A stretch of 64,000 bases of DNA from a bacterium. Its GTDB lineage: Bacteria > Joyebacterota > Joyebacteria > Joyebacterales > Joyebacteraceae. Of this stretch, positions 12,257-61,078 are shown one piece after another. Location: positions 62,001 through 126,000 of the forward strand of contig JALGZD010000161.1 of the NCBI GenBank assembly GCA_025782395.1, given 5' to 3'. Under the pieces are notes generated by a model. That model worked only from the letters and a program-made list of their open reading frames with translations. It was not told the origin of the DNA and did no database searches. The position numbers and the translations under genes were made by a program. Numbering within the stretch: the first letter of the stretch is position 1; every line of letters begins with the position of its first letter.

Positions 12257-13054
12257 ATGAGAAAGAGCTACTCCATCGTCGCGGTCTTCATCGTCATGGC
12301 GCTTGCATCGTCGGCGCTTGGCACCGAATACCAGACGGTCGACGCGTACAAGAACTGTATTGGCGTTCGCTCGCTGAACGCGGCCTACACGTCGAATCTC
12401 ATGCCTGGCGACACCTACACGGTCACCGTGGATGGCAACGCCAGAGCGAGTATGTACGAGGATTCCGACTACGACGGCGTCTTCCTCTACTACTACGACG
12501 GCACGGCTCCGGTTCACCCGAAGATGGTCGTGGTCAACAAGGAAGAGGAGCATACGTTTGTCGCGAGTGGGAGTGATTTCTACGCGTTCCTGGTCGACAA
12601 GTCGATGAAAGACACGGCCGACAATAGCGGTTCGATGACCGTTACCATCACCGGAGAGCCGGGGTTCCGTGAGGAGCTTATAGTTGACGCGCTTTTCAAT
12701 TGTATTGGTCTCTTCGAGTTCGGCGCCGCGAAGAAGTACCTCACAGGGGGAAACACATATTCCACGACCGTAAGCGGAGATGCCGCCACGAACGGTGATC
12801 CGACCGGTTACTTCGATGGCGTCTGCCTCTTCTACAGGCACATCAGCAGACCCTATCATCCCATTCTCGATGTTCTCGAGGTTGGTGACGAGAGGTTGAT
12901 CACCCCGCACAGCACCGGGTGGGTCTTCTGCTTCCTGCTCGACGAGACCGTTGATGCTATGGGCAATAATTCCGGCTCGATGCTTCTGAGCTTCGAGGAA
13001 GAGACGGCCGTAGAGGAGTCGAGCTGGGGCAGTGTGAAGGCGATGTACCGCTAA
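12257..13054 (+). CDS. Secreted protein with the C-terminal WGxIKxxYR tag
   Basis: A 265-residue protein of no recognised family. The start is ATG 12257 (M-R-K-S-Y-S-I-V), 11 bases after GGAGG; a nearer ATG is out of frame. A signal peptide is cut near S-A-L-G|T-E. The body contains two similar halves of about 110 residues, each opening with V-D-A-x-x-N-C-I-G and carrying a Y-x-D-G-V-x-L-F/Y-Y strand and N-N/D-S-G-S-M near its end, so it is an internal duplication of a beta-sandwich. The last residues, V-E-E-S-S-W-G-S-V-K-A-M-Y-R, match the tag on five other exported proteins in the window. It has its own promoter and terminator. Function is unknown; surface display or secretion is inferred. 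Confidence 0.85.
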   Translation: MRKSYSIVAVFIVMALASSALGTEYQTVDAYKNCIGVRSLNAAYTSNLMPGDTYTVTVDGNARASMYEDSDYDGVFLYYYDGTAPVHPKMVVVNKEEEHTFVASGSDFYAFLVDKSMKDTADNSGSMTVTITGEPGFREELIVDALFNCIGLFEFGAAKKYLTGGNTYSTTVSGDAATNGDPTGYFDGVCLFYRHISRPYHPILDVLEVGDERLITPHSTGWVFCFLLDETVDAMGNNSGSMLLSFEEETAVEESSWGSVKAMYR

Positions 13055-13106
13055 TTGCACGCCACACCACGCGTGGCATGCATACGACTGCGCTGATCGA
13101 CACAGC

Positions 13107-13140
13107 AAGAGGGGCCTGCCGGCATGGGCGGGCCCCTCTT
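13107..13140. terminator. Bidirectional terminator hairpin
   Basis: A long inverted repeat, AAGAGGGGCC ... GGGCCCCTCTT, lies between the convergent tagged gene and the C25 peptidase-like gene. Confidence 0.8.
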
Positions 13141-13192
13141 CTTGTTCCTTCCAGTGGATTCAACACCCTCCATCCTGACGAAGACCGCAGGA

Positions 13193-16100
13193 TCAGCGGA
13201 GGAGTACCACCTTGTGGCAGTCCTTCCGCGGACCGGCCTCCAGACGGATGAAGTAAATGCCGCTCGCCACGGTGTGCCCCCGGCTGTCCCTGCCGTCCCA
13301 GGCGAATACGTGGTTGCCTGCCGGGATCTCGCCATCGTGCACTGTTCTCACGAGACGACCCGAGGGGCTGTAGATCCTGAGTTGGACCGGACCCTCTTCC
13401 GGGAGCGCGAGGCGCATCGTCGTCGCTTGGCTGAATGGGTTCGGGAAACATGGACGGAACCGGAAGGCCGAGGGGACCGGATCGTCTTGCACTCCCGTCG
13501 CCGAGAGGTCCACGTGGAGATCGTGGCGAAGCACTGCGTTGTACGAACCCTCACCGGCCGTCACGTCGATCCACAGTGTAAGCATCGTATCATCCACCGC
13601 ATCGGATATCTCGATCGCGAATGGATCGTATGCGCTGCTCTCGGAGTTTCCTACCCCGATATCCGGAGAGCTTCCACCAGCATCGATGATAGTCACGAGC
13701 GCTTCATCCGACGAGAGTGTCAGTGTCACCCCAGTCGCCGCAGCCAGACCGTTGTTCGTCAGCGTCACGGACAAGGTCACGGTTTCCCCGGGGCCTGCGA
13801 GACCGTTTCCATCACCCAAGGCTGCGTCGTCGAGCACCACGTCTGTCAGCACGAGCCAAGGGAGGTTCGGCTCATCCGGTGTTGTTGTTGTGTATAGAAT
13901 CGCCGTGCCGTTGACCAGCGGGGTAGCATGGCCGTCGTAAGCGCCGTCGAAGAGGTACTCGAGCCCGTCGCTCTCATCCGGGTTCTCAATTCCGACCGTA
14001 CACGCTGTCGGATCGGCCACAGTCTCGTACTGGACCAGGATCATGCCGTCGTCGGTGGGCGTCGGGTACTCGGACTCCTTCAGGAAGATGATCTGGAACG
14101 TCTCGGTGTTGGACGTTCCGTAGTGGGGCACCTCGTCGAACTGGATGATGAACCTGTCGTTGGAGGCGTCGTACCACTTGTAGATATCGCCTCCGGCTGA
14201 TGGGTCAAGGTCGTCCCAAAGACCGGCGATCATGTTCTCGGGTCCGTCAACATTGGGAATGCCCGAGTTGTGGCCGAACCGATAGTCCTCGATACCCATC
14301 GAGATGAACCCGTTCGAGCAGACCGACATCCTCAGGTAATGGGTGCCGTAGTGCTGGAAACCGAACGGCATGTTCACGGTTGTTATCACATCGTCCTCAT
14401 CCGTGATCTCTGCGATGAGGCTTCCGGGACCGGGCGGCGCGATGTCGTACCAGTCGAACGACGGCGCCCCACCGTAGGTTAGGTCGCCGGAGTCGAAGGC
14501 GTAGTAGCCGTAGCTGTCAGGGCCGGTTACAAGGGAAGCCGTCGGCCCCGAGATGACTAGATCGAAATCCACGGTCTCGGCGTACGCGTACGAGTGGCCT
14601 TGGCCTGCGATAAGAAGTCTGAGGGCCACGTTGGTGCCGTCGGGCGCCCTCGGAGAAATCTGCAGCACGAAGGGCGTCTCCGAGTTGTCTCGCAATGCTC
14701 CGGCCGCCATGTCTCCAAGAGCCGCTGCGGCCGAAGTGACCGCGATGTACGGATTGAGGGTCGTCATCTCGGCGACGATCGATTCGGCGTCGCACTCACC
14801 GACGTTCTCAAGCGTCACCGTGAGGCCGATCACCTCGCCGGGACTTGCCGTTGCTTCTCCGTCTCCCGCGGGGGCCGCATCGTCTATCCCGACAACAACG
14901 ATGTCGAGGTCGGCGCTGGCCACCGGTATCGGTGGCGGCGAAAGAACGCGCAGAGAACCGCTGTATGTTGTAGCGAGCTCGTACACGACCATCGATCCCA
15001 CTCTGCATGTGGGTGAGATCGATATCTCAAGGGGAGGAGTTCCCCAGCAACTCGCCTGCGCTGCGATATCGCCGAAAGCGGATACGCTGTCGACCACGGC
15101 TACGTACGGCGCGTCACTTCTCAGCACGGTGGACGTCGAGTAGGCGATCGCATCGCCCACATTCTCGAACTCGATCGATATCACCGCTGATTCGCCGGGG
15201 CTCAGAAGCCCGTCGCCATTGCCGCCTGCTGAATCGTCTATTGCGATATCGGCAAAGAGCACGAATGGTCCGCTGTCCAGCACCTGGGTTGTCCCCTCGT
15301 AGGGGACGAATCCCTGCGCCGTCACAGTCACGCTGAGCGCGCCGGACGAAGCGGGGGTAAGCGGGAACGACACCTGCCCGGTTCCGTCAGTGTGCGCCCA
15401 CGCGTATATGTCTCCGTCCTTCAGACAGGCGACGAGCGCTCCCTCGAGTGCTTGGCCCCCTGAGAGCACCGAAACGACGAACGTTCCCTGTCCGGCGTGG
15501 TAGTATCCGTCGTGAAGGACCGTCATCTCTCCCGGATTTTCGAGCCAGAGATTCATCTCCGGGTCTCCCAGAAGGTTCCACGCCTCGTATTCCTGCTGTA
15601 CTTGGTCGAAGTTGTAGATGGACATCTTGGCGGCGACGCATGCCGCTCCCAGCACGCCACCGTCTTCCCCGAAGACGTGTTCGAAGAAGCCCGTTGCGCC
15701 TGCGCCCCTGCGTCTGGAAAGCGGTTGGCTTGCCGCGATGACGGTATTACTCCCGAAAAAGGCGACAGCACCACGTGGATAGGATGCGGTGCCTGCACGG
15801 ACGAATGCTTCACAAATGAATCCATCCTGGTGATATGAGCCTGTTCCGCACGTCGCCGATATGATGATGGGCAGTTTCCATCCGTTCGTCAGGCTGTTCG
15901 GGTCGATGTCGAAAGGATACGGCCATTCGTACCAGGCCTGGCCCCGGAAGTTGAGAAAGCCGCGTCCCGCGTTGACGGAAGCATAGAAATCGTTCCTGGT
16001 AGTGTCGTTTCTGCGGAAGAGCGTGTCTATCGGAGCGAACCCTGCAGCATCCATGAGATCGTAGATGAGCCACGTGTTGGCGTAGTAGATTGCATCGCCG

Positions 16101-17290
16101 GAATCGTAATCCTCGGCGATCATGAGCGTCGCGCTTGCCGGCCAGTCGGCATCCCCCGTGAGCGGCGTGCGCTCGTAGCCGAGGATCTTCGCGACCTGCG
16201 TTGCGCAGTCGGCGGGGGAGTCGGCCGAGATCCGGCCGATCATCACATCGACGAAGTAGTCCGTACCCTCCAGTGTCGCGTAGTAGTCGTCGGTCCAGGT
16301 GAGGCCGTCGTACGCCGGGAGCTGTTCGGTGTCGCCGACCAGCAGCACATACTCCGGGGTGACTTCCCAGGTGTCGTAGGCATTCTGGATGTAGGCTCTG
16401 ATGTCGTCCGCACCGGAACCGACATCGGCGAGTGTCACAACCTTCGTCTGGATACCCTTCTTGTGTTTCCACTCGGCGAGATCATCGATCTCGCTCTCAT
16501 ATGAATCTGCCGTGATGATGAGATATCTTGCACCGTACGGCAGTTCGTCGCGACCCCCGAGGTCTCCGGAGACCGCTGTCCGAGCATCATGCGCCGCGGA
16601 GTGGCCCGGGGCGTAGTTGATGACCCGGTCTCTGTAGACAGCTCGAAACGCCGGTGCTTCAACCCTGTGGATCTCTCGCTTCTCGTTGACTCCGGTACCC
16701 GGCGACGTCTCGATCCTCAGGATGACCGAGCTGTTCGCGCTCTCCTCCGAAGCCGTGGGTGGGCGAGGTTCGTACGTCACGCTGACTATCCTGAGATCGC
16801 GCATGATGCCGGGCTCCGAGACCTCCACGACTCCATCCCGGTCGGCGGTCCAGGTGATGCGACCAGTGTCCGGAACGCGCACGAGAACGGAGAAGCCGGC
16901 GGGAGAAGGCGACCGCGCGCTCCACACTTCCCCTGATCGGGCGGCGGGCAAGGACCCTCCGGTGAGAGAGGATGCGTTCGCTGACGAGCGGTCCGGTCGG
17001 AAGTTGAAGACCGGGTGCAGCTCTTCGCCGGGCTGCGACTCCGAGTCGGCGGAGCTCGCCCGATTCCACGAGACGCCGAAGCGCAAGACGATCGCGTCGT
17101 CGGCGCTCGTGAGGAGCTCGGCCGTTGCCTCGCAAGCGTATTCGTGCGGGTCGCTGATGGGCGCAGCGGCGATCTCACCGCCGGAGATCTCGGTAGCGGA
17201 GAGCAGCGATGCGGGAATGAGCATAAGGCACAGAGCAATGACAGCGAGTATCAGGGAGGCGGTCGCATGCCGCGTAGGAATTGGACGCAA
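13193..17290 (-). CDS. Gingipain-like (peptidase C25) surface protein with FlgD-Ig C-terminus
   Basis: A 1365-residue exported protein. I place the start at TTG 17290, six bases after AGGAGG; the longer ATG reading at 17380 adds 30 non-signal residues. After the signal peptide comes a pro-region (to about 210). A caspase-fold C25 domain follows (about 215-600; A-R-Y-L-I-I-T-A-D, Y-V-L-L-V-G-D, D-V-M-I-G-R-I-S). Next are two acidic CARDB-like beta-sandwiches, a Nidogen-like stretch, a third sandwich, and a final FlgD-Ig-like domain (F-x-P-C-F-P-N-P-F, then A-W-D-G-R-D-S-R-G, ending K-V-V-L-L-R), as in type IX secretion substrates. The catalytic Cys is present (S-A-T-C-G-T-G). The His motif G-H-G seen in gingipains reads R-G-Q-A-W here, so activity is doubtful. 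Confidence 0.88.
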   Translation of the reverse strand: MRPIPTRHATASLILAVIALCLMLIPASLLSATEISGGEIAAAPISDPHEYACEATAELLTSADDAIVLRFGVSWNRASSADSESQPGEELHPVFNFRPDRSSANASSLTGGSLPAARSGEVWSARSPSPAGFSVLVRVPDTGRITWTADRDGVVEVSEPGIMRDLRIVSVTYEPRPPTASEESANSSVILRIETSPGTGVNEKREIHRVEAPAFRAVYRDRVINYAPGHSAAHDARTAVSGDLGGRDELPYGARYLIITADSYESEIDDLAEWKHKKGIQTKVVTLADVGSGADDIRAYIQNAYDTWEVTPEYVLLVGDTEQLPAYDGLTWTDDYYATLEGTDYFVDVMIGRISADSPADCATQVAKILGYERTPLTGDADWPASATLMIAEDYDSGDAIYYANTWLIYDLMDAAGFAPIDTLFRRNDTTRNDFYASVNAGRGFLNFRGQAWYEWPYPFDIDPNSLTNGWKLPIIISATCGTGSYHQDGFICEAFVRAGTASYPRGAVAFFGSNTVIAASQPLSRRRGAGATGFFEHVFGEDGGVLGAACVAAKMSIYNFDQVQQEYEAWNLLGDPEMNLWLENPGEMTVLHDGYYHAGQGTFVVSVLSGGQALEGALVACLKDGDIYAWAHTDGTGQVSFPLTPASSGALSVTVTAQGFVPYEGTTQVLDSGPFVLFADIAIDDSAGGNGDGLLSPGESAVISIEFENVGDAIAYSTSTVLRSDAPYVAVVDSVSAFGDIAAQASCWGTPPLEISISPTCRVGSMVVYELATTYSGSLRVLSPPPIPVASADLDIVVVGIDDAAPAGDGEATASPGEVIGLTVTLENVGECDAESIVAEMTTLNPYIAVTSAAAALGDMAAGALRDNSETPFVLQISPRAPDGTNVALRLLIAGQGHSYAYAETVDFDLVISGPTASLVTGPDSYGYYAFDSGDLTYGGAPSFDWYDIAPPGPGSLIAEITDEDDVITTVNMPFGFQHYGTHYLRMSVCSNGFISMGIEDYRFGHNSGIPNVDGPENMIAGLWDDLDPSAGGDIYKWYDASNDRFIIQFDEVPHYGTSNTETFQIIFLKESEYPTPTDDGMILVQYETVADPTACTVGIENPDESDGLEYLFDGAYDGHATPLVNGTAILYTTTTPDEPNLPWLVLTDVVLDDAALGDGNGLAGPGETVTLSVTLTNNGLAAATGVTLTLSSDEALVTIIDAGGSSPDIGVGNSESSAYDPFAIEISDAVDDTMLTLWIDVTAGEGSYNAVLRHDLHVDLSATGVQDDPVPSAFRFRPCFPNPFSQATTMRLALPEEGPVQLRIYSPSGRLVRTVHDGEIPAGNHVFAWDGRDSRGHTVASGIYFIRLEAGPRKDCHKVVLLR

Positions 17291-17415
17291 GTACTTCCTC
17301 CTGCCGTTTTTGTGACCGAGCCCGCACCGCTGTGCTGAGCCGGTTCGCATCGACTCCGGGTGGCGCTGGGCTACGTTCACACCGACACTGACGATAACGC
17401 CTGATCCTACAACAC

Positions 17416-17444
17416 ATTATCGCACATTTTACAAGGGTCGTCAA
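17416..17444 (-). promoter_or_regulatory. Sigma-70-type promoter of the C25 peptidase-like gene
   Basis: On the minus strand a -35 TTGACG (17444-17439) and a -10 GATAAT (17421-17416) are spaced by 17 bp. They lie about 125 bp before the TTG start, within an AT-rich patch. This placement also supports a start downstream of 17380. Confidence 0.7.
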
Positions 17445-17467
17445 TTGCTGGATTGATGAGGCGCCGC

Positions 17468-17896
17468 TCAGGAACTCGCGAGATCGCTTGGGAGAGGCCC
17501 CATCGAGACGCATCTGGCCTCGCCGGTAGCGATCCTGGTGCCGTCAGGCAGAATCGCTGTGGCCGCCACGCGGAAGGTCCGGCGACGGGCCTCGATGAGG
17601 CCGGCCGTTACGGTCACTGTCTGTCCGACGCTGAGAGGGGAGAGAAACCGCACGGAGAGCTCCGCAGTTACGGCGAGATGCCCCATTCTGTTGAGAAGAG
17701 TAACCATTGTCTCATCCAGAACCGTGCTGATGAGTCCGCCGTGAACGATGTTACCATAGCCTTGGAACTTCTTCGGGAAGGCGACTGTGGTGCGTACGTG
17801 CTTTCCCGTGTAGTCGAATTCAAGGTGCAGACCATCCGCGTTCTTCTTCCCACAGGCGAAACACATTGAGTTGTCCGCAAACTCCACGCTTTTCAT
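17468..17896 (-). CDS. Hotdog-fold thioesterase, PaaI family
   Basis: A 142-residue cytoplasmic protein. It opens with C-F-A-C-G-x-x-N-x-x-G-L-H-L, common in the PaaI/YbgC-like thioesterase subfamily. It continues with the hotdog core Y-G-N-I-V-H-G-G-L-I-S-T-V-L-D-E, where H-G-G and D/E supply the usual catalytic surface, and L-S-V-R-F-L-S-P-L-S-V-G-Q. It probably hydrolyses an acyl-CoA thioester, but the substrate is unknown. Its start overlaps the end of the upstream DUF2007 gene by 4 bp, so the two form an operon. Confidence 0.88.
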   Translation of the reverse strand: MKSVEFADNSMCFACGKKNADGLHLEFDYTGKHVRTTVAFPKKFQGYGNIVHGGLISTVLDETMVTLLNRMGHLAVTAELSVRFLSPLSVGQTVTVTAGLIEARRRTFRVAATAILPDGTRIATGEARCVSMGPLPSDLASS

Positions 17897-18231
17897 GAAC
17901 TGCCCCCGTTGTTCACCGGTCCATCGCCGTCCGATGTCCCGATGTCAGGGTCCTCGATGATCTCCGCGGGCGTATCCACGACCGCGCGTGCTTCATCGAG
18001 TCGATCCGCAGCAACCAGGACCTCAACAGCTCCGAGTCCGTCTATGGTCATGGCAAGTAGCTTCGTCATGGCTTCCATCTTGAGCGTTGTCTCTATGCCG
18101 GCGGCCTCGAGCACGCTCTTCAGGGTCAGCGCCTCCATCTCACCGCTCGCGACGTATGCTACGGCCAGGTCCGCATCGTGGTCTGAGCCCGTCCGATCTT
18201 CATATCGGTCATCTCTATCGTCTTGAGGCAT
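17893..18231 (-). CDS. DUF2007-type small protein
   Basis: A 112-residue cytoplasmic protein. The core, V-A-Y-V-A-S-G-E-M-E-A-L-T-L-K-S-V-L-E-A-A-G-I-E ... V-E-V-L-V-A-A-D-R-L-D-E-A-R-A-V-V, matches the small DUF2007 fold (putative signal-transducing or metal-handling), whose function is unsettled. It has an acidic N-terminal extension and a Gly/Asn/Ser-rich tail. The ATG at 18231 is preferred over that at 18237 because GAGGGAG abuts the latter. It is the first gene of a two-gene operon with the thioesterase. Confidence 0.78.
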   Translation of the reverse strand: MPQDDRDDRYEDRTGSDHDADLAVAYVASGEMEALTLKSVLEAAGIETTLKMEAMTKLLAMTIDGLGAVEVLVAADRLDEARAVVDTPAEIIEDPDIGTSDGDGPVNNGGSS

Positions 18232-18334
18232 CAGCATCTCCCTCTGGAGTTGTCAGGCTGCCTGCTTCTCAAGGCAGTATACTCCCGTGGATGTCCGGAT
18301 ACTACCCGGCATACCCTTTCGTCTTTCGGGCGCA

Positions 18335-18366
18335 GAAAAACGGGCGGGGAAGCACCCCCGCCCGTT
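18335..18366 (-). terminator. Intrinsic terminator of a tagged secreted protein gene
   Basis: On the minus strand AACGGGCGGGG pairs with CCCCGCCCGTT and is followed directly by a run of T, 28 bp past the stop codon of the gene at 18394. Confidence 0.88.
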
Positions 18367-18393
18367 CTCACCATATGCCACACCATGGGGCGT

Positions 18394-19260
18394 CTAGCGG
18401 TAGTCAGCCTTGATGCTTCCCCATGTGGTCTCCTCGACCGGCGTGCTTGAAAGGAACCAGTCGTAGATGGTCTCGATCATGTGGTTGAAGTCCATGTCGG
18501 GTGCGGCCGAGATCTCAATACCGGCCCACACCGTCTTGAACGTCTCTGTCTCGTTGTAGATGGCAACCCCGTCCAGCGCGGCTTCGTCGTAGTAGAGCAG
18601 GTAGTTGGCCGTGGCCGTCGGTGTTGCGACATCCGGGAAGAACGGGTTGTTCAGGAAGACGAGCGTGGAGTCCAGGAAAAAACTCTCGCCGTCGAAAAGG
18701 CCGCCCGTTGAACCGCTGACGTTGGCTGTGTCAGGCGCCCAGATGACGTCCTGGGAACAGACGTTCATACCCAGGTAGTCATAGGGGAACCCCGAGCACG
18801 GTCCCATCTCGGGATGCGATCCCCACATGTAGTCCTGCCCGACGAACAGCAGATTGCCGCCCGTGTCCAGGTAGCTCGCCAGAACCGCCTCATCGGCAGG
18901 GTCGATATTCCCCGGAACGTCCCACCAGTTCTCGCTCGTCAGGACGACGACCACCGGGTAGTTGTCGGCTGTCACGTCCGACGGGAAGTTGATCGTTCCA
19001 TCTTCGATCTCAACGCTCGCGAACGCAAACGTCGTGGCGCCCGCAAACGTGAACGCATCGGCGTAGCGCATACTCAGGTCTGCGAAGCCGGGGTTGGCAT
19101 TGATGTCGATGCAGATGAGGACGTCCGCGACGGCCAACGGCGCACCGTGGTGCTGGAGATCGACCGTGACCTCGTCCTGCTGCAGGCTGACACGCGCACT
19201 GGTTGCGAATGCAGTCGTTGCCATGGCCACAACTGCGAGGATCACTAGCACTGTTCTCAT
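18394..19260 (-). CDS. Secreted protein with the C-terminal WGxIKxxYR tag
   Basis: A 288-residue exported protein starting at ATG 19260 behind AGGAGG at a six-base spacing; a longer frame upstream is not signal-like. The signal peptide (M-R-T-V-L-V-I-L-A-V-V-A-M-A-T-T-A-F-A) is followed by a mixed alpha/beta body. A glutamine-amidotransferase-like segment (V-V-V-L-T-S-E-N-W-W, A-S-Y-L-D-T-G-G-N-L-L-F-V-G-Q-D) resembles folds found at the ends of secreted proteases, but no catalytic set is evident. It ends P-V-E-E-T-T-W-G-S-I-K-A-D-Y-R, matching five other proteins here. It is transcribed divergently from another tagged gene at 19514, with its own consensus promoter and terminator. Confidence 0.85.
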   Translation of the reverse strand: MRTVLVILAVVAMATTAFATSARVSLQQDEVTVDLQHHGAPLAVADVLICIDINANPGFADLSMRYADAFTFAGATTFAFASVEIEDGTINFPSDVTADNYPVVVVLTSENWWDVPGNIDPADEAVLASYLDTGGNLLFVGQDYMWGSHPEMGPCSGFPYDYLGMNVCSQDVIWAPDTANVSGSTGGLFDGESFFLDSTLVFLNNPFFPDVATPTATANYLLYYDEAALDGVAIYNETETFKTVWAGIEISAAPDMDFNHMIETIYDWFLSSTPVEETTWGSIKADYR

Positions 19261-19454: not shown

Positions 19455-19513
19455 GATTTCGTGATGAACTGAGTGCCTGAGAATTGAAGGCACCAAGGAG
19501 GAGGGCCTCGTCA

Positions 19514-20389
19514 ATGAGGGAGCTGCCTGTTCTTGTGATGATCATGGCTGTCTTCTCGAGCGCTGTCTGCCTTGCCGGCACGTGCAGCCTCAGCAGTATT
19601 CCACGCGCTGAGGTTCCAGCCCCGGTTCTCGACCGGGCTGTGCTGAACTCGTTCCCGTCACCCGACACAGCTCCCATGGGGGTGGACTGGGACGAAGCCG
19701 GTCAGATTCTCTATCACGTTGACGAGGACTCGGGAAAGGTCTACTCCTTTCAGCCTCCGTCGTGGATGCCGGCTCTTCTCTTCGACGTACCGACCCAGAT
19801 CGGGATAGGTGCGACGGACCACGTCGGCAACGGGATCTGCTACATTCCCGATGGCAGAGATGGCTCACTCTATATCACCGACTACGGCGGCTACGACGCC
19901 GATCCCATCAACAGGGTCTATCAGTTCTCACCCGACGGCACGCTGCTTGGTTCGTGGGATGTGGATGCGATATGTACCAACGGTGTGCTGGGCATCTGTT
20001 TCGATGGCGTGAGCTTCTGGCTCTCGGATTTCCGCGGTGATCTGCTGGAGTGCGACGAGTCGTTCAATGTGATCGCCGCCTACGGCGATCCGTCGGGCTC
20101 GGGTGCAGGAGGGGCTCTTGATTTCGATCCGGACAGTGGACTGTTCTATATGACGCACTACTTGCTCGGGACGATCTATGTTCTTGACGGCAGTTTGAAC
20201 CTGCTCGATTCTTTCGCCGGCCCTGCGGTTGCCTCCATTGGCGTGGCTGTCGGACGCCAGGTCACGCGCGACGCCGGGAGCCTGTGGTTTGCGTCGTATG
20301 ACACCGACATCATCTACGAGATAGACGACGAATACGAGAGCCCGGTCGAGCGCTCGAGCTGGGGGAGAATCAAGGCCGTCTATAGGTAG
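19514..20389 (+). CDS. Secreted beta-propeller-like protein with the WGxIKxxYR tag
   Basis: A 291-residue exported protein. ATG 19514 follows an AAGGAGGAGG tract by about ten bases; a TTG at 19484 would place the ribosome site inside the coding region. The signal peptide ends near C-L-A-G-T. The body has repeated strand patterns of a beta-propeller: G-V-D-W-D-E-A-G-Q-I-L-Y-H-V-D, then S-L-Y-I-T-D-Y-G-G-Y, then C-F-D-G-V-S-F-W-L-S-D and F-D-P-D-S-G-L-F-Y-M-T. These are like NHL or SdiA-type lactonase repeats. The ending P-V-E-R-S-S-W-G-R-I-K-A-V-Y-R is the shared tag. It diverges from the tagged gene at 18394. Ligand or enzyme activity is unknown. Confidence 0.84.
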   Translation: MRELPVLVMIMAVFSSAVCLAGTCSLSSIPRAEVPAPVLDRAVLNSFPSPDTAPMGVDWDEAGQILYHVDEDSGKVYSFQPPSWMPALLFDVPTQIGIGATDHVGNGICYIPDGRDGSLYITDYGGYDADPINRVYQFSPDGTLLGSWDVDAICTNGVLGICFDGVSFWLSDFRGDLLECDESFNVIAAYGDPSGSGAGGALDFDPDSGLFYMTHYLLGTIYVLDGSLNLLDSFAGPAVASIGVAVGRQVTRDAGSLWFASYDTDIIYEIDDEYESPVERSSWGRIKAVYR

Positions 20390-53785: not shown

Positions 53786-54772
53786 ATGAAACCGAACATT
53801 CTTGTGACAGGAGGAGCAGGTTACATCGGGAGCGTGACCGTTGAGCGGCTGCTCGAGGCCGGCTACGGCGTAGTCATACTCGACGATCTGTCGAAAGGAC
53901 ACAAGTCGGCCATTCCCGATGGATGCCGATTCGTCGAAGGCAACATCGGGGATACCAAGCTTGTCGAGGAGGCTCTTAGAAAGAACAGCATCGACTCCGT
54001 CATCCACTTCGCCGCGATGAGCCTTGTTGGTGAGTCGATGGAACGGTCGGGTGACTACTACAGCAACAACGTCGTCGCCGGCATCCGTCTCCTGGAAGCA
54101 ATGGACGCTACGGGCGTCCGCAAGATCGTCTTCTCTTCATCCGCTGGAGTGTACGGTGAACCCGAGACGATTCCGATCAGCGAGACGAACCGGACTGAGC
54201 CGGTCAATGTCTACGGAGATACGAAGCTCATATTCGAGCGTGTGCTCTCTTGGCAATCGGAACGCACTGCTCTTGGACACATCTCGCTCAGGTACTTCAA
54301 TGCAGCCGGAGCTTCGGAGCGCTACGGTGAGGACCACAGACCGGAGTCGCACCTGATCCCGATCGCGCTTCAGGCCGCTGCTGGAAAGCGTCCCGAACTG
54401 ACGGTGTTCGGAGGCGACTACGAGACGCCGGATGGAACATGCATCAGGGACTACATCGACGTGCGCGATCTTGCCGACGCCCATATCGCCGCGCTCGCCG
54501 CGCTCGATGCCGGACGCTCTGGGGTCTACAATCTCGGCAACGGTGAAGGCTGGAGTGTTCTCAACGTCATTGAGTTTGCAGAGGAAGTGACCGGGTTGAC
54601 CATTCCCAGAAAGATGGGTGCTCGGCGCGCCGGTGACCCTGCGAGACTCGTCGCCAGCTCGTCGTTGGCTGAGAGCGAACTTGGCTGGACGCCGCGGCAT
54701 CCGGAACTCAGGGACATGATCGAGGCAGCCTGGAAGTGGTTGAAGAACTACCCGGACGGCTATCCGGATTGA
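53786..54772 (+). CDS. galE: UDP-glucose 4-epimerase GalE
   Basis: A 328-residue cytoplasmic short-chain dehydrogenase-fold enzyme. It binds NAD through T-G-G-A-G-Y-I-G-S (residues 8-16). The catalytic Tyr143-x3-Lys147 motif (N-V-Y-G-D-T-K) and the Ser pair before it (F-S-S-S-A, about 116-120) are intact, and R-Y-F-N-A-A-G-A and D-Y-I-D-V-R-D-L-A-D-A-H are typical of GalE. It interconverts UDP-glucose and UDP-galactose (or the N-acetyl forms) for surface polysaccharide. AAGGAG lies upstream of ATG 53786. It may be co-transcribed with murJ. Confidence 0.95.
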   Translation: MKPNILVTGGAGYIGSVTVERLLEAGYGVVILDDLSKGHKSAIPDGCRFVEGNIGDTKLVEEALRKNSIDSVIHFAAMSLVGESMERSGDYYSNNVVAGIRLLEAMDATGVRKIVFSSSAGVYGEPETIPISETNRTEPVNVYGDTKLIFERVLSWQSERTALGHISLRYFNAAGASERYGEDHRPESHLIPIALQAAAGKRPELTVFGGDYETPDGTCIRDYIDVRDLADAHIAALAALDAGRSGVYNLGNGEGWSVLNVIEFAEEVTGLTIPRKMGARRAGDPARLVASSSLAESELGWTPRHPELRDMIEAAWKWLKNYPDGYPD

Positions 54773-54909
54773 GCGGAGAGGGCGGAGGCGCTGCGGGGCT
54801 GGACCACGTGTTCCCGGAGCCTGCGCGGAGCCACACCGGCTGATCTCCAGGATCTATGAAGCTTGACTTGTCGCGGGGACGTTGCTAGTATTCTTCCTGT
54901 TGGATTTGT

Positions 54910-54985
54910 GGCGCCCTAGCTCAGTTGGTAGAGCAGCGGACTGAAAATCCGTGTGTCCGCAGTTCAATTCTGCGGGGCGCCACCA
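54910..54985 (+). tRNA. tRNA-Phe (anticodon GAA)
   Basis: A complete cloverleaf of 76 bases. The acceptor GGCGCCC pairs perfectly with GGGCGCC, the D arm is GCTC ... GAGC, the anticodon loop CTGAAAA carries GAA, and the T arm is CGCAG-TTCAATT-CTGCG. The CCA end is encoded. Confidence 0.97.
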
Positions 54986-55014
54986 CTATGTATGACAGAT
55001 CGACCAGGACGCGA

Positions 55015-55090
55015 GCTGGTGTAGCTCAGCTGGTAGAGCAACGCACTCGTAATGCGTAGGTCAGCGGTTCGAGTCCGCTCACCAGCTCCA
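55015..55090 (+). tRNA. tRNA-Thr (anticodon CGT)
   Basis: A complete cloverleaf of 76 bases, 29 bp after tRNA-Phe. The acceptor GCTGGTG pairs with CACCAGC, the anticodon loop CTCGTAA carries CGT, the T arm is AGCGG-TTCGAGT-CCGCT, and CCA is encoded. Confidence 0.97.
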
Positions 55091-55119
55091 CGGATTCACG
55101 ATCTGATGAGGAACAAGAG

Positions 55120-55155
55120 GGCCGGCGGGTGCCGATGGGTGTCTGCCGGCCTTTT
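55120..55155 (+). terminator. Terminator after the tRNA pair
   Basis: GGCCGGCGG pairs with CTGCCGGCC (one mismatch) and is followed by TTTT, 30 bp after tRNA-Thr. Confidence 0.8.
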
Positions 55156-55248
55156 CTCGTGGTCGGCAGGAATGCAGAGAAGCGTTTTCCTGCTGTTTCT
55201 CATCGGGGACGAGTGCGAAGACGAATCTGGTTGAACTCCGTTCTGCAA

Positions 55249-55277
55249 TTGACATATGATACTATTTGTGATATTAT
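55249..55277 (+). promoter_or_regulatory. Near-perfect sigma-70 promoter of a tagged starch-binding-like gene
   Basis: TTGACA (55249-55254) and TATTAT (55272-55277) are spaced by 17 bp in an AT-rich patch unlike its surroundings. A leader hairpin (GGGTCCGC ... GCGGACCC, 55297-55319) follows. The leader to ATG 55396 is about 110 bases. The match suggests strong expression. Confidence 0.85.
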
Positions 55278-55395
55278 TGTTGTGTAGATGAAAGGTGGGT
55301 CCGCGCCGTGAGCGGACCCCGTGGTGTTACTATGGGACGTCGTTTCCGTGTCGAAGATCGGCCCGGGTTGTGACGTCCGGAAAGAGGAGGGAAGG

Positions 55396-56220
55396 ATGAG
55401 GAAGTCTGTGACAATGCTGTTGGCAGGCGCGATGCTTCTTGCGATTGCCTCGACCGCGATGGGTGCTGTTGGCTGGTGTGGGAACATCTGGCCGAACAAC
55501 GGCACGCCCTACACATCTGTCGACGATATCGACGTGTATGTCCAGGTCTGGAAGGAAGGCGTTACGGATCAGGCCGGTCAGGGTGCAGATATCGCGGCCT
55601 ATCTGTACTACCGTTGCACAGGTGACCCCGACTTTATCGAAGTCCCGATGGACTACTGGGGCGATGTCGGCAACAACGACGAGTACCATGGTGTTATCCC
55701 GGCCGGCCACGGCTGCGCCGAGGTCGAGTTCTACGTGAAGATCGTCGACCTGACCGACATGGCCGAGTGCTATGGTCAGGATCAGGCTGGCAACGATCCG
55801 AACTTCTTCCTGCCGATCACCGAGGTGACCGCGCAGGATGTGACGGTGACGTTCCATCTCTGTCTGACGGAGGGTGTCGAGACCGTCGGTGATGTCTGCG
55901 TCACAGGCGGCGGCGATCCGCTCACCAACTGGGGCGACGGTGTGCCGATGGTCTTCAGTTGCGAGGCAATCAGCCCGAAGCTTTATCAGGTGGACATTCT
56001 CTTCCCGGTCGGCAGCAACCCCTACGTCGAGTACAAGTACAAGAAGGACGACTGCGTGACGTGGGAAGGCACCGGCAACCACAGCTTCACGATCGACGAC
56101 TCCGTGCCGACAATGGATCTCGCGGTCGATGGTTGGGAGTGGAACACGCCTGACTGTCCGGACTGCTCGAGCCCGGTCGAAGAGTCGACGTGGGGCACGA
56201 TCAAGGCCATCTACAGGTAG
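55396..56220 (+). CDS. Secreted starch-binding-like protein with the WGxIKxxYR tag
   Basis: A 274-residue exported protein, ATG 55396 behind AGGAGGGAAGG. The signal peptide is cut near S-T-A-M-G|A. The first half is a beta domain. The second (about 150-250) resembles a CBM20/CBM48 starch-binding fold: V-T-F-H-L-C-L, V-C-V-T-G-G-G-D-P-L-T-N-W-G-D-G-V-P-M, Y-V-E-Y-K-Y-K-K-D-D-C-V-T-W-E-G-T-G-N-H-S-F. It ends P-V-E-E-S-T-W-G-T-I-K-A-I-Y-R, the shared tag. The next gene is a related, larger tagged protein. Binding of starch or glycogen at the cell surface is inferred. Confidence 0.85.
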   Translation: MRKSVTMLLAGAMLLAIASTAMGAVGWCGNIWPNNGTPYTSVDDIDVYVQVWKEGVTDQAGQGADIAAYLYYRCTGDPDFIEVPMDYWGDVGNNDEYHGVIPAGHGCAEVEFYVKIVDLTDMAECYGQDQAGNDPNFFLPITEVTAQDVTVTFHLCLTEGVETVGDVCVTGGGDPLTNWGDGVPMVFSCEAISPKLYQVDILFPVGSNPYVEYKYKKDDCVTWEGTGNHSFTIDDSVPTMDLAVDGWEWNTPDCPDCSSPVEESTWGTIKAIYR

Positions 56221-56257
56221 TCCGGGTCTGACACGTCTGAATCAGTAGCAGTATTGC

Positions 56258-56290
56258 GCGGGCCCTGGCGAGTTGAACGTCAGGGCCCGC
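56258..56290 (+). terminator. Intrinsic terminator between two tagged genes
   Basis: GCGGGCCCTG pairs with CAGGGCCCGC around a 13-base loop and is followed by AGTTT. Confidence 0.75.
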
Positions 56291-56396
56291 AGTTTCCCAG
56301 TACAGGACAACACAGGCGAGCAAGGCACGAGCGGGCCTACTTGAGACTGCAGCACGATGAGCGCCAGGCCTTTCGCCACGAGAGAAGGAGGATGAA

Positions 56397-58100
56397 ATGA
56401 GGACACTTGCGACGGCCATTCTGGTGGTGCTGCTGGCCGCGCCCGTCGCGCTATCCGCTCCGAGCATTGTTGGGAGCTTCCAGGAATGGGATCCAGCTGA
56501 TCCTGCGAGCGAACTCACGCTCCAGGCGAACGGGGTCTGGACGTTCACGACGACCGTCTTGGCTGGTGAGACCCAGTACAAGGCCGTCGACGGCGATGCA
56601 TGGGGTCTGGATTTCCCAGGCGCGAACCAGATATTCAACCTTGCCTCAGACGATGATGTCACGTGGCACGTCAATCTCGGCGCTACGGTCGGGATCAAAG
56701 AGGGTGACGAGTATGTTTTCCACCACATGAATCCGCCCATCGTCTGCGGTAGCTTCATGAGTGAACTCGGCGGTACCGATTGGGACCAGACCGACACCAG
56801 CACGACGGTCATGGCGGACGGAGACGACGACGGCGTCTGGGTGTTTCAGTCCATTATTCCGGCCGGCAGCTACGCCTTCAAGATCGTTCTGAACAACAAC
56901 TGGGACCAGAACACGTCGCCATCCGGTGACATCTTCTTCGTGTCCGATGGCACGACGCCCGTCACGTTCAGCTACGACATGGCGACAAACACGACCGAGG
57001 TCGTATCGAGCGCTCCCCCGGCAGTGATAGATGCAAGGATTGACGGAGACGGCACCGATGCGAGCCTCTATGCTGTCCAGTTCTCGGATGACATGGATCA
57101 GACGACGGCTGAGACCGAGGGGAACTACGCAGTGACGGGCGGACCCGGCGCAATCACGGTGACGGACGCGACTCTGGACGGCACCGATGCCAGCATTGTC
57201 CACCTGACCTTGAGCCCGGCGCTCACGGAGGGCTACGACTACCAGTTCGTAGTCACCGGCGTTACCGACGAAGGCGGGACGCCGGTCGATCCGAGCAACA
57301 ACGATGACTGTTTCTACCTGCATATGGTCACGTTCGAGGTGAACATGCACCTCTACGTCGACATCAACGGTGTGCCGATGAGCGTGCACATCCAGGGTGA
57401 CACGCATCCGCTCACGTGGGATCAGTGTGGTGGGGCCGAGCTCTCAGACGGTGATGTCGATACGACCTATGTCGTCGACGAATACTTTTCCATGGGCTAT
57501 GTCTGCGGCGCAGCCGCTGAGTCGACCCAGGTCAAGTACAAGTACGTCGTCGACTGTGCAACGTGGGAAGGCGACTACGACTTCGGTCACTATGTGACGC
57601 TCGATCCGAACGCCGCGAGCCAGACGGTCAACGTGTGGTGGGAGGATATGGCGCCTTCCGACAACATCACGTGCGATGTTGGCGTCAGATTCCAGGTTAC
57701 CCTGCTGCCGGGCGATTTCGACGCGCTGACCGATACGCTTGCCGTACGCGGCTCGATCGCCCCGCTCGATTGGGTGATCGACACCGAGATGGTCGACGAC
57801 GGAACGAACGGGGATCTGGCCGCAGATGACGACATCTACTCGGCTCTGGTCACGTTCCCGACCGGTAGCTACCGGTACCTCGAGTACAAGTACGCGATCA
57901 ACGGTGCCTTCGAGTGCGACACGTATCCGAACAGGATGCTGACTCTCGACGATATCGACGGTTGCATGGCGATGCGAGATGGCCCGATGGAAATCCTTGA
58001 TATCTGGGACTGGTGTGAACCAGCGACGAGCGTGCCGGATGATCCTCCGGGAACGACCGTCATCAAATCGTGGGGCCAGATCAAGGCGCAGTACAGATAG
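56397..58100 (+). CDS. Secreted multi-domain glucan-binding-like protein with the WGxIKxxYR tag
   Basis: A 567-residue exported protein, ATG 56397 behind GAAGGAGG. The signal peptide is cut near A-L-S-A|P. Residues 21-205 are two E-set domains like those of pullulanase or SusE/F (S-I-V-G-S-F-Q-E-W-D-P, then Y-A-F-K-I-V-L-N-N-N-W-D-Q-N). A bacterial Ig-like domain follows (205-310), then two CBM20-like domains, each with the pattern Y-x-x-E-Y-K-Y or Q-V-K-Y-K-Y, then W-E-G or F-E-C-D. The ending T-V-I-K-S-W-G-Q-I-K-A-Q-Y-R is a slightly divergent form of the shared tag. It probably binds alpha-glucan outside the cell; no catalytic domain is present. Confidence 0.85.
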   Translation: MRTLATAILVVLLAAPVALSAPSIVGSFQEWDPADPASELTLQANGVWTFTTTVLAGETQYKAVDGDAWGLDFPGANQIFNLASDDDVTWHVNLGATVGIKEGDEYVFHHMNPPIVCGSFMSELGGTDWDQTDTSTTVMADGDDDGVWVFQSIIPAGSYAFKIVLNNNWDQNTSPSGDIFFVSDGTTPVTFSYDMATNTTEVVSSAPPAVIDARIDGDGTDASLYAVQFSDDMDQTTAETEGNYAVTGGPGAITVTDATLDGTDASIVHLTLSPALTEGYDYQFVVTGVTDEGGTPVDPSNNDDCFYLHMVTFEVNMHLYVDINGVPMSVHIQGDTHPLTWDQCGGAELSDGDVDTTYVVDEYFSMGYVCGAAAESTQVKYKYVVDCATWEGDYDFGHYVTLDPNAASQTVNVWWEDMAPSDNITCDVGVRFQVTLLPGDFDALTDTLAVRGSIAPLDWVIDTEMVDDGTNGDLAADDDIYSALVTFPTGSYRYLEYKYAINGAFECDTYPNRMLTLDDIDGCMAMRDGPMEILDIWDWCEPATSVPDDPPGTTVIKSWGQIKAQYR

Positions 58101-58409
58101 GGCGGCTGCGTCTGGCGATTCCGGCTTGGCATGAGCGCCGGCGCTCGCGAGTGTGCATCATGAGCAACACCAAGAGCGCCGCGCTCAGGCCGGTGATGGG
58201 AGCCGGGGGGGGCATGAGACCTTCCCGGCTTCCGCACGTCCTGGGTCGGCGTGCCGGCCTGCGCCCAAAGCAGAAGAGAGAGGTATGAACCGACAGTTGA
58301 CACTACGGGTCCGGTGTCATAGCTTGGGCGAGCTTGCCCGCCCGAACGCCGGGGACAAGGGGGCGATGTGGCCGGCGCGCGCATACACTAAACCACCGGA
58401 CAAGGGCAC
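58101..58409. other. Intergenic region before the ECF sigma gene
   Basis: A 309-bp gap. It contains a palindrome GAGCGCCGGCGCTC (58131-58144) that may end the preceding transcript, and the sigma gene promoter at 58297-58325. No coding frame was found convincing. Confidence 0.5.
58297..58325 (+). promoter_or_regulatory. Sigma-70-type promoter of the ECF sigma gene
   Basis: TTGACA (58297-58302) and TAGCTT (58320-58325) are spaced by 17 bp, about 85 bp before the start. Confidence 0.65.
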
Positions 58410-58991
58410 GTGTCAGATATGGTGACCAGGAAGGCCGACTTGTCGCCGGACGACAGCTCAAAGGGACTGATTGAGCGCCTCAAGGCCGGGGATGAGCGGG
58501 CCTTCGAGGAATTCGTAACCGAATACAGGGAGCGCGTCTATCGCGTCGCCTGGCGTGTTGTCCGGGACGATGAGACCGCCGAGGATGTGGCGCAGGAAGC
58601 CTTCATAAAGGTCTTTCGCCACATCGGTGGATTCGAGTGCAGATCGAGCCTCTATACGTGGCTCTACCGCATCACCGTCAATATCGCTCTCAACAGACTG
58701 AAGCGGGACAAGTTCAGGAACATGCTACCGTTGGGGGATCTGCCGAGGCCGGACAGAAAGGCCGCGAGCGATCCGGCGAGGGCGGCACTGAGCGGCGAGA
58801 TCGCCGAGAGGATCAATGAGGCCGTTCGCGCGCTACCAGACAAACAGAGAGCCGTATTCGTCCTCAAGTTCTTCGAAGGTCTGACCCACAAGGAGGTATC
58901 CGATATCGTGGGTTGCTCTGAGGGGACGTCGAAGGCCAACTACTTCCATGCCATTCGAAAGCTCAGAACGAAGCTGGAGGATCTGAGATAG
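58410..58991 (+). CDS. ECF-family RNA polymerase sigma factor
   Basis: A 193-residue protein. GTG 58410 or ATG 58419 could be the start, and neither has a strong ribosome site. Region 2 (F-E-E-F-V-T-E-Y-R-E-R-V-Y-R-V-A-W-R-V-V-R-D, D-V-A-Q-E-A-F-I-K-V-F, Y-T-W-L-Y-R-I-T-V-N) and region 4 (L-P-D-K-Q-R-A-V-F-V-L-K-F-F-E-G-L-T-H-K-E-V-S-D-I-V-G-C-S) are complete. It directs RNA polymerase to a stress or envelope regulon. The anti-sigma gene begins one base after its stop, so they are coupled. Confidence 0.95.
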   Translation: MSDMVTRKADLSPDDSSKGLIERLKAGDERAFEEFVTEYRERVYRVAWRVVRDDETAEDVAQEAFIKVFRHIGGFECRSSLYTWLYRITVNIALNRLKRDKFRNMLPLGDLPRPDRKAASDPARAALSGEIAERINEAVRALPDKQRAVFVLKFFEGLTHKEVSDIVGCSEGTSKANYFHAIRKLRTKLEDLR

Positions 58992-58992
58992 C

Positions 58993-59583
58993 ATGAGATG
59001 TGACGCCGTCAGAGATCTGTTGATCGAGTACCTGGAGGGTGACCTCGGTCACGCTGAATGGGAGGAGATCGAACGCCATCTGGCGGAGTGCATTGAATGC
59101 GCTCGCGAGAAGGAATCGCTCAAGCAGGTCATGGGGCTTCTTCGCGACGACGGATATGTAGAGCCTTCGTCGTTCTACTGGACGCGGTTCACGGCCCGTC
59201 TCATGCAGCGCGTTCACCGCGAATCCCCTGTGCGCAGATTAATCTCCTCGCACGGTTCTGTTCCGAAGCTCGCTTCGGTCGCGACGGCCTTGGTTCTCTT
59301 CGCAGTCGGATTCTGGGTAGGCAAGGGGCCCGGCCTCGGCGTGCGGGGTTCGGGAGATCTCGAGATCGCGGGCGCAAGCACGTCCACATCCGTCATCTCA
59401 TCGGCGAGCAAGTTGCGTGTAGTGAGTGGCAGCGAACCTGTCGTCTTCGCAGACTACGCCGATACGCTCAGGCCGGACAGCTTCTCGAGCCCGACAGACG
59501 GGCCACAGCTGATTCTGGCGAAGTCGCTTGAGCCGCAGGCCCGCGTGGACAGGATGCTCTCCGAGAAGCAGATACGGGACTAG
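58993..59583 (+). CDS. Membrane anti-sigma factor with zinc-finger (zf-HC2) domain
   Basis: A 196-residue protein. The N-terminal zf-HC2/ASD motif has Cys3, His29, Cys33 and Cys36 (R-H-L-A-E-C-I-E-C), which binds the sigma factor. Residues about 92-112 are a transmembrane helix (S-V-A-T-A-L-V-L-F-A-V-G-F-W-V-G). A periplasmic tail of about 85 residues rich in Ser and Asp follows. It should hold the sigma factor at the membrane until an envelope signal arrives, and is coupled to the sigma gene. Confidence 0.92.
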   Translation: MRCDAVRDLLIEYLEGDLGHAEWEEIERHLAECIECAREKESLKQVMGLLRDDGYVEPSSFYWTRFTARLMQRVHRESPVRRLISSHGSVPKLASVATALVLFAVGFWVGKGPGLGVRGSGDLEIAGASTSTSVISSASKLRVVSGSEPVVFADYADTLRPDSFSSPTDGPQLILAKSLEPQARVDRMLSEKQIRD

Positions 59584-59615
59584 TACGCATTCCTGGCGTA
59601 CGATTGAAGCTGTGA

Positions 59616-59642
59616 GGGCCGGCCGCCGAGCGACCGGCCCTT
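59616..59642 (+). terminator. Terminator after the sigma/anti-sigma pair
   Basis: GGGCCGG pairs with CCGGCCC around an 11-base loop and is followed by TT. The T tract is short. Confidence 0.6.
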
Positions 59643-59845
59643 GCCGCTGATATCGACGTGGCACGTCGCTGGTCAGTGCGCGCCGCGCCGATTGTCCCGC
59701 GTTTTCCGACGTTCTGCGCTCCCCATGGTTTCTCCTTGTCAGTTTCCCCATCGGTATGCTACTAGTTCCATTGAGACAACCAGTTGCGCCGGGACGCCAG
59801 CGGAGAGGCGGCAGTTGCCCGGCGAGGCGCTTGAAGGGAGGTCTC

Positions 59846-61078
59846 ATGAAGGGGACAATCATAGCGATGGTGGTTCTGATCGCTCTTTTCGCGGGGACGG
59901 CCTGCGCGCAGAAGAGCGTTCAGGAGCTCACTGCGGCCAGAATGCCGGACTCAGCGCGCGAGGCCCAGGAGCCGGTTCTGCGGTCAGTGGCCATCGGAGA
60001 AGCCGGCAGCTCTGTCCGGGAGCGGAACCGCCTGACGACGAACGTCGCGTATCCCGGCGCTCCGAGTGCCGACGATCTCGGTTTCCGTGATCCACCGTGC
60101 GAGCTCGAGTGTGATCCCTGTGCCTACACTGAGGGCGAGGAACCCTGCTACGATGGCTACGTCGACGTTTTCAACAGTGGATGCAACAATCCCGCCGAAT
60201 CCTTCTCTCATATCGACCCGGCCTACGGCAGGATCACGATGTGTGGTCTGAGCGGCACATATGTGTCGGGCGGGAACTCCTACCGCGACACCGACTGGTA
60301 CGAGATCGTGCTGACCGAGTCGCGTGAGATAGAGTTCTGCTGCACGGCTGAGTTCCCGCTCCAGATGTTCATCATCGATGGGATCCTGGGCTGCAGCGAC
60401 TACGACGTCCTCGAGAACCTGCCGGTAGACGAGTGTACCGAGGGCTGTATCACGATAACCATCGGTCCGGGGACGTTCTGGCTGTGGGTCGGGCCGCAGG
60501 TCTTCGAGGGGCTCGCTTGCGATCTCGACTACATCATGACGATCGACGGCTACTACGCCGATGACTGCGTTCTGGACTGTCCGGGAGGCGCCGAGATTGA
60601 GGGTGAACCGGAGTGCGGACCCGGCTATGTGGACCACTTCAACGGCGGCTGCAATTCGCATCCGGAGGTCTTCTCGTCTCTGGTGCCAAGCGCATCTACC
60701 ATATGGGTGTGTGGAAAGAGCGGTGTCCACTCCAGTCCTGGAGGGTTGTGTTACAGGGACACGGACTGGTACGAGATCGTCCTCGACGAGCCGCGCGAGA
60801 TCGAGTTCTGTGCGGCGGCCGAGTTTCCCGTTCAGACGTTTCTGATCGTACCCGACCCGGATTGCACCAATCCCGTGATCATCGACGAGCAGTTCGGAGG
60901 CTCCTGCGAAGATATCTGCATGACCCAAGTGCTCGATCCAGGTACATACTGGCTCTGGATCGGACCATCGTACTGGTTGCCGACCGACTGTGATCGCAGG
61001 TACATCATGACCGTCAGCGGCTACACGACGCCGGTCGAACGCACGAGCTGGGGGATGATCAAGGGGCTCTACCGGTAG
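59846..61078 (+). CDS. Cys-rich secreted duplicated-domain protein with the WGxIKxxYR tag
   Basis: A 410-residue exported protein, ATG 59846 behind GGGAGG. The signal peptide is cut near G-T-A-C-A|Q. After a linker, two homologous halves (about residues 90-240 and 250-395) each carry G-Y-V-D-x-F-N-x-G-C-N, then S-Y/C-Y-R-D-T-D-W-Y-E-I-V-L, R-E-I-E-F-C, and G-T-F/Y-W-L-W-I/V-G-P, with many paired Cys suggesting disulfides. They resemble pre-peptidase C-terminal beta-sandwiches of secreted proteases, but no protease is attached. It ends P-V-E-R-T-S-W-G-M-I-K-G-L-Y-R, the shared tag. Confidence 0.87.
   Translation: MKGTIIAMVVLIALFAGTACAQKSVQELTAARMPDSAREAQEPVLRSVAIGEAGSSVRERNRLTTNVAYPGAPSADDLGFRDPPCELECDPCAYTEGEEPCYDGYVDVFNSGCNNPAESFSHIDPAYGRITMCGLSGTYVSGGNSYRDTDWYEIVLTESREIEFCCTAEFPLQMFIIDGILGCSDYDVLENLPVDECTEGCITITIGPGTFWLWVGPQVFEGLACDLDYIMTIDGYYADDCVLDCPGGAEIEGEPECGPGYVDHFNGGCNSHPEVFSSLVPSASTIWVCGKSGVHSSPGGLCYRDTDWYEIVLDEPREIEFCAAAEFPVQTFLIVPDPDCTNPVIIDEQFGGSCEDICMTQVLDPGTYWLWIGPSYWLPTDCDRRYIMTVSGYTTPVERTSWGMIKGLYR

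Follow-up and report, generated by a model that had tools for sequence, protein, structure and literature searches.

A short tag on otherwise unrelated secreted proteins changes places with type IX sorting domains in Candidatus Effluviviacota

What is the purpose of an ending that is shared by secreted proteins with different bodies, and which machinery may read it? The window, by which we mean the whole 64-kb stretch of DNA that was analysed, is taken to come from Candidatus Effluviviacota (the name used here for the host phylum), a lineage of seep sediments (PMC11323493). Six of its proteins share a tag of 16 positions, with the short form PVExxSWGxIKALYR and the core VExxSWGxIKAL. The reading frames of all six are open over the coordinates listed below, as the original prediction had it, and each ends in the tag and then directly in a stop codon; the signal-peptide-like start that had been claimed for them was found in six of six by a home-made heuristic. 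The claim that their bodies are unrelated needs a correction: the six proteins form five BLAST clusters, but starch-binding-like modules connect proteins 4 and 5 (at 55396 and 56397), which are thus related and not fully independent. Protein 2 is encoded on the minus strand, a point that the original prediction did not give. The features are given with the scores of the tags against profile A1, an HMM built from 27 tags over 16 positions.

12257..13054, + strand: tagged secreted protein 1, duplicated beta-sandwich body; open reading frame, signal-peptide-like start, ends in TAVEESSWGSVKAMYR and the stop
13004..13054, + strand: tag 1 and stop, TAVEESSWGSVKAMYR; HMM A1 38.2 bits
13193..17380, - strand: C25 (gingipain/PorU-like) peptidase with a T9SS type A sorting domain at its end; PF01364 E 4e-53, TIGR04183 25.7 bits (cut-off 23)
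18394..19260, - strand: tagged secreted protein 2, amidotransferase-like in the original prediction, no Pfam match
18394..18444, - strand: tag 2 and stop, TPVEETTWGSIKADYR; HMM A1 37.2 bits
19514..20389, + strand: tagged secreted protein 3, propeller-like; weak SGL match
20339..20389, + strand: tag 3 and stop, SPVERSSWGRIKAVYR; HMM A1 38.2 bits
45191..50335, - strand: carboxypeptidase-regulatory-repeat protein of 1714 aa with a C-terminal FlgD_ig domain (T9SS type A-like CTD); PF13860 32.7 bits (cut-off 27)
55396..56220, + strand: tagged secreted protein 4, CBM_20-like domain; PF00686 22.6 bits, slightly below the cut-off
56170..56220, + strand: tag 4 and stop, SPVEESTWGTIKAIYR; HMM A1 38.6 bits
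56397..58100, + strand: tagged secreted protein 5, pullulanase X25 domains; PF22058 104.6 bits, in one BLAST cluster with protein 4
58053..58100, + strand: tag 5 and stop, divergent, TTVIKSWGQIKAQYR; HMM A1 27.9 bits
59846..61078, + strand: tagged secreted protein 6, duplicated domain; open reading frame and BLAST clustering
61028..61078, + strand: tag 6 and stop, TPVERTSWGMIKGLYR; HMM A1 38.9 bits

The DNA pattern WGxxKxx[YF]R-stop occurs at six sites in the 64-kb window, which are exactly the six tagged reading frames, and the same pattern gave 0.00 matches in 100 dinucleotide-preserving shuffles of the window. A narrower tag pattern was found at 26 sites in the 2.91-Mb host genome, and the reversed-pattern control at 0. 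Profile A1 gave 62 matches in the host genome, approximately 57 of which were judged genuine by position and context, with 0 expected randomly. The genome-scale consensus of 55 tags is [ST]-P-V-E-x-[ST]-S-W-G-x-I-K-A-[LM]-Y-R. Five residues, W, G, K, Y, and the final R, had been called invariant; across the 55 tags of the host genome (G000), this holds for W (55/55) and nearly for K (54/55), but not for G (46 G, 6 T, and 3 S) or for the last residue (48 R and 4 K). The W is preceded by S or T in 52 of the 55 tags, and the E is kept in 48. Glycine is encoded by 4, arginine by 6, and alanine by 4 different codons in the tags, and all three stops are used. This variation of synonymous codons within the tag indicates selection at the peptide level.

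The original prediction proposed a profile search and named full-length homology of the bearers as one of the findings that would speak against a signal. The search returned tens of signal-peptide proteins with the tag, and the SprA/PorV transporter family of type IX secretion (T9SS) is also present. By a simple heuristic rule, 39 of the 49 complete proteins with a tag begin with a signal peptide, as do 66 of the 317 genes that served as background, from 464 kb of the host genome (Fisher p 1.5e-15). Among the ten proteins without a call, several show a signal-like segment if another start codon is used, and others are incomplete or disrupted at their 5' end. The tagged proteins are 63–621 aa long. 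With the tags removed, their 55 bodies form 26 BLAST clusters, the largest with 16 members, and they include beta-helices, propellers, starch-binding modules, repeat proteins, and many singletons, so homology over the full length does not account for the shared ending. These results support the tag as a signal common to secreted, otherwise unrelated proteins, at far beyond random frequency. The idea that the tag is a functionless remnant, left by a shared domain or by an inserted repeat, gains something from the paralogy of some bearers (the cluster of 16), but it is hardly credible, since the bodies form 26 unrelated clusters, the synonymous codons vary freely, and the tag is lost where another element is gained. 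An origin from mobile or repeated DNA was ruled out by the codon diversity, and shared ancestry of the bearers by the body clustering.

Is the tag a signal that is already known? Scans with NCBIfam 20.0 and Pfam gave no model matching it, and no earlier description was found in the open-licence literature, which is in line with the view that no described signal has this form. The tags PEP-CTERM, GlyGly-CTERM, LPXTG, and MYXO-CTERM are likewise short and C-terminal on unrelated secreted proteins. They carry a hydrophobic helix and a basic end, and are read by exosortase, rhombosortase, or sortase. The present tag is without the hydrophobic helix; no hydrophobic stretch was found inside or immediately upstream of the tags, and with no NCBIfam match either, the distinction from PEP-CTERM, LPXTG, and GlyGly-CTERM that had been drawn at the outset stands. 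Microcompartment and encapsulin cargo-loading peptides are short terminal ligands, possibly helical, on cytosolic cargo, whereas the bearers of the present tag are Sec-exported. An amphipathic-helix reading of the tag was dropped, because its helical hydrophobic moment is not above that of shuffled peptides (approximately 25% of the shuffles equal it). In the AlphaFold model of window protein 1, the pLDDT of the body is mostly 70–95 and that of the tag is below 50, with a short helix predicted at residues 257–263; in this model, the tail resembles a flexible peptide more than a part of the body. Foldseek with this protein found no reliable relative (TM approximately 0.2). The window also encodes a PEP-CTERM protein at 8892-9548 (+) (TIGR02595 27.4 bits, cut-off 16), which suggests that an exosortase is probably present as a third sorting system, coexisting with T9SS domains and the tag.

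The place of the tag is the next point. Exactly eight residues follow the tag W in 45 of 57 host-genome tags, and up to twelve more follow in the others; the stop comes directly after the tag in about three quarters of the host-genome cases, with 1–12 extra residues otherwise, and the terminal residue varies among R, K, and Q. At other loci, 221 of 222 distinct tags lie at most 15 residues from the end, a figure to be read with the fact that part of these loci were collected by a pattern requiring the stop. Two host-genome proteins carry the tag 328–330 residues ahead of the C-terminus. The exceptions with an internal tag all belong to one body family, the 'WWCGDDADTSLIPP' family, and a body-only search of the host phylum with this family gave many matches that are split at one place, at body position ~80. 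There, the internal tag (e.g., TTVENISWGAIKALYR) and a hydrophilic linker are inserted between ...LPPI and PVLTF... in 22 proteins from at least 12 genomes. In these proteins, 293–335 residues follow the tag, the W and K are kept, and the terminal tag is present in 0 of 22. Several of them stop exactly at the site where others have the terminal tag (INLDDIWIEGWPGP and stop vs INLDDTWFEGVHESAVEQSSWGRIKAFYR and stop). Beyond the 22, the protein L131:6556-7929 (+) has an internal tag together with a decayed terminal tag, RRRSSSWQLIKEIAR (SSWQLIKEIAR), and judging from its sequence it was apparently caught after relocation of the tag; the AlphaFold model of this protein has a mean pLDDT of only 49. 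The fixed position that had been noted is therefore true of the six window proteins and not of the genome as a whole, where extra residues and internal tags occur. Proteins with an internal tag from the genus and from G011 (L057, L340-L343) have another recurring motif at their C-termini, SPY[RASG][RK][FL].

These positions bear on a processing or ligation signal, in which a dedicated protease or a sortase-like enzyme would cut the tag or join it to a sugar or lipid. Most copies of the tag lie at the extreme C-terminus, as this reading would have it, and the C25 peptidase of the window matches the PorU model, with a score of 82 that is far below the cut-off of 420. However, cleavage at the 22 internal tags would remove most of the protein, and the terminal residue varies, with R, K, or Q, 1–12 extra residues, or the endings KAL or KALY in Coatesbacteria. 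PorU cleaves type A CTDs, and cleavage of this type at an internal tag would cut the protein, which argues against removal by PorU. We consider such processing quite improbable, and the cleavage or ligase reading of the original prediction is unsupported because the tag is conserved inside proteins, where cutting or ligation would break them.

The 'WWCGDDADTSLIPP' family has approximately 61 complete proteins, of which 35 carry a C-terminal tag, 22 an internal tag, and 4 a type A-like CTD; the numbers of members with two elements and with none are both 0. For this count, an automatic label of 'none' was amended by inspection for L354, L356, and L359. Terminal versus internal tag gave a Fisher value of 7e-13 with relatedness ignored. 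The four CTD members without the tag end in FlgD_ig-type domains (L353, L354, L355, and L356), and the three of these that were scanned all pass TIGR04183 (27.5, 33.8, and 33.1 bits vs the cut-off of 23). A maximum-likelihood tree of the family, from which most of the insert was left out, requires three or more changes on well-supported branches to account for the internal state, and it nests the CTD forms at two separate places among the tag forms. The move of the tag to the internal loop took place in at least two separate clades, all within this one body family. A second swapping family consists of beta-helix proteins encoded by tandem neighbours on contig C117 of the host genome: a type A CTD (24.7 bits) closes L060:7858-9501, the tag closes the adjoining L060:6625-7851 (37% identical), and the two diverge at one shared body boundary, GALGAGGCG. 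TIGR04183 did not match the six tagged proteins of the window or L060:6625-7851, whereas the scanned untagged homologues match. Within the window, the gene for the C25 peptidase (13193..17380) lies amid tagged genes, as a case of the alternative sorting signal in the same genome. The tag had been described as different from type IX domains; this holds for sequence and size, but the two interchange on related bodies, which indicates a closer link to type IX secretion than had been supposed.

In the T9SS, a type A domain acts as an export signal, and PorV reads it (PMC10202324, PMC12618676, PMC11969387). The type A CTD (TIGR04183/PF18962; FlgD_ig-like in the host phylum) resembles the tag in its C-terminal place, its Sec-exported bearers, and its tens of copies per genome, and the two replace each other in two of the body families. 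It differs in having approximately 70–100 residues, an Ig-like fold, and motifs A–E (PMC10202324), whereas the tag has approximately 16 residues, no such fold, and sometimes an internal place. The 'short' type A CTDs of Prevotella intermedia are likewise a reduced T9SS signal with predicted PorV binding (PMC11969387); they have 40–55 residues, three beta-strands, and motifs B, D, and E, and the tag has no sequence resemblance to them. The CTDs of type B (TIGR04131) and type C, which use PorP/SprF shuttles, are unrelated families of T9SS signals with dedicated shuttles (PMC12618676, PMC10202324). By their published descriptions, type B CTDs have 100–235 residues, and types B and C are always C-terminal, unlike the tag. 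The described T9SS signals in general are folded, C-terminal, and 40–235 residues long, and none has 16 residues or lies internally (PMC11969387, PMC10202324, PMC12618676). The tag behaves as a sorting signal and fails the tested features of a type A CTD.

Because each 'WWCGDDADTSLIPP' protein has only one element and the type A domain is a signal read by PorV, the most economical explanation is that the tag conveys the same kind of information in approximately 16 residues. We believe, with slightly more confidence than doubt, that the tag is a minimal sorting or docking motif linked to the T9SS that does the job of a type A CTD. We infer export or retention by the T9SS, with a PorV paralogue or SprA as the reader and a tag that is not cleaved. 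The bearers would first be exported by Sec, in T9SS-bearing phyla of the FCB kind. Once the protein has folded in the periplasm, the tag would designate it as a substrate that the type IX machinery of the outer membrane exports or retains. Most likely the tag would dock into SprA or into one of the numerous barrels of the PorV family, and it would probably be read as a peptide ligand and not cut off at the end. Docking seems likelier than cutting because the tag is kept at W and K in an exposed internal loop, where cleavage would be destructive. With more doubt than confidence, we also speculate that there may be a linear export motif of 12–16 residues in several uncultured phyla, without a folded domain, usable at any position and with a dedicated PorV-family reader, in parallel to type A domains. 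An export signal of another outer-membrane pathway, such as type II secretion, would make the T9SS coincident by lineage. The PEP-CTERM protein is in the host phylum too, and several sorting routes coexist there, but T9SS type A domains replace the tag on the same bodies, and we give this pathway little credence. We know of no short linear tag on type II cargo.

If the T9SS-linked sorting role of the tag is true, a 16-residue motif that replaces a folded domain and can move to a loop would show the minimal recognition need of the machinery. Cargo recognition would become testable with one short peptide, and the motif would make a very small export tag for harmless laboratory hosts.

SprA accompanies the tag in all the tag-bearing genomes searched but three incomplete ones. 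Within the host phylum, SprA_N has a match in 17 of the 20 genomes and in 13 of the 13 good ones; the SprA match is absent in three incomplete genomes (57%, 73%, and 78% complete). The SprA of the host is L286:6443-12766 (TIGR04189 541 bits). Outside the host phylum, a first search detected SprA in 12 of 13 genomes with the tag. The thirteenth, a Coatesbacteria chromosome, yielded SprA at E 6e-75 with a profile made from its tag-carrying relatives, and Coatesbacteria was dismissed as an SprA-free exception. The PorV family has 18 copies in G000 and 7–27 in the tag-bearing genomes checked; over 29 genomes, tag-free Coatesbacteria included, it has 6–27 per genome, with 27 in Zixibacteria G022. 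The FlgD_ig domains of G000 number 84. SprA is widespread across FCB bacteria. Both SprA and PorV were also found in the tag-free Coatesbacteria G043-G046 and G048, so their co-occurrence with the tag is not specific and by itself does not identify the reader. Linkage gave no gene for a tag reader. A PorV-family gene was considered as an operon partner and rejected: it adjoins a single tagged gene, in G014 (L099), and the tagged gene is missing from the corresponding place of G000 (L360). At that place, the PorV-family gene L360:1754-2686(-) directly follows the gene for a protein of 2500 aa whose end is type A-like, L360:2753-10252(-), and the same pair in L099 suggests cargo-shuttle pairs.

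A docking tag independent of the T9SS should be weighed here, in which a dedicated envelope receptor, such as a scaffold or a protein bound to peptidoglycan or to the outer membrane, would tether the protein, and export across the outer membrane would take another route, if it happens at all. The tag and the type A CTD would both then serve retention in the envelope and not export. The absence of the tag from some SprA-positive Coatesbacteria fits this reading, as do the internal placement, which suits a binding motif, and the small size of the bearers (63–621 aa), as tethered partners might be. However, a mere anchor needs another export signal and none was seen, the untagged members use the exporter domain TIGR04183, and the bodies are of extracellular types (beta-helix, propeller, and starch-binding). 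We consider tethering of this kind unlikely, though less so than processing or another export pathway.

How far does the tag extend? In the host phylum, 24–79 tags per genome were found at E <= 0.001 in 20 of 20 genomes from 8 genera. When 84,980 species genomes were scanned for the exact pattern, at least 114 stretches matched, and the named hits among the matches listed are Effluviviaceae, 'Eisenbacteria', Krumholzibacteriia, Coatesbacteria, Zixibacteria, and 'Gemmatimonadota DHS20C21'. Genomes beyond the host phylum have 1–26 tags each, with variants in Eisenbacteria, Krumholzibacteria, Zixibacteria, and Coatesbacteria. The Coatesbacteria version has a shortened or altered end (VEETTWGQIKAL, SAVEPSSWGRVKALYQ, and VQETSWGQIKAMDF, each followed by the stop) and finishes at KAL or KALY; at least one match was found in 9 of 14 genomes, and most tag-bearing genomes have the shorter-ended variant. 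This indicates that the essential part is VExxSWGxIKA[LM] and that the final two or three residues are dispensable there. Within Coatesbacteria, G043-G046 and G048 are tag-free and G049-G055 are tag-rich, with SprA and PorV in both groups, and the two groups are a natural contrast for locating the reader of the tag. If the sorting role holds, the tag would reveal hundreds of surface proteins missed by current models in uncultured phyla, namely Effluviviacota, Eisenbacteria, Krumholzibacteria, and Coatesbacteria. Among 2.9 million viral contigs, 2 match the tag pattern (L382:3152-3181 and L383:214-243), and these are possibly host DNA within virus bins.

The best tags of G017 and G034 have the same contig, place, and score, and the two are apparently one genome (family f1). 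Several MAGs titled 'Candidatus Eisenbacteria' (L094, L103, L131, L142 (JAUXGN01), and other CSMAG records) belong to the same family as the host genome, and CSMAG_2930, with the same title, belongs to the same genus. Because these MAGs fall inside the host family, their names look wrong.
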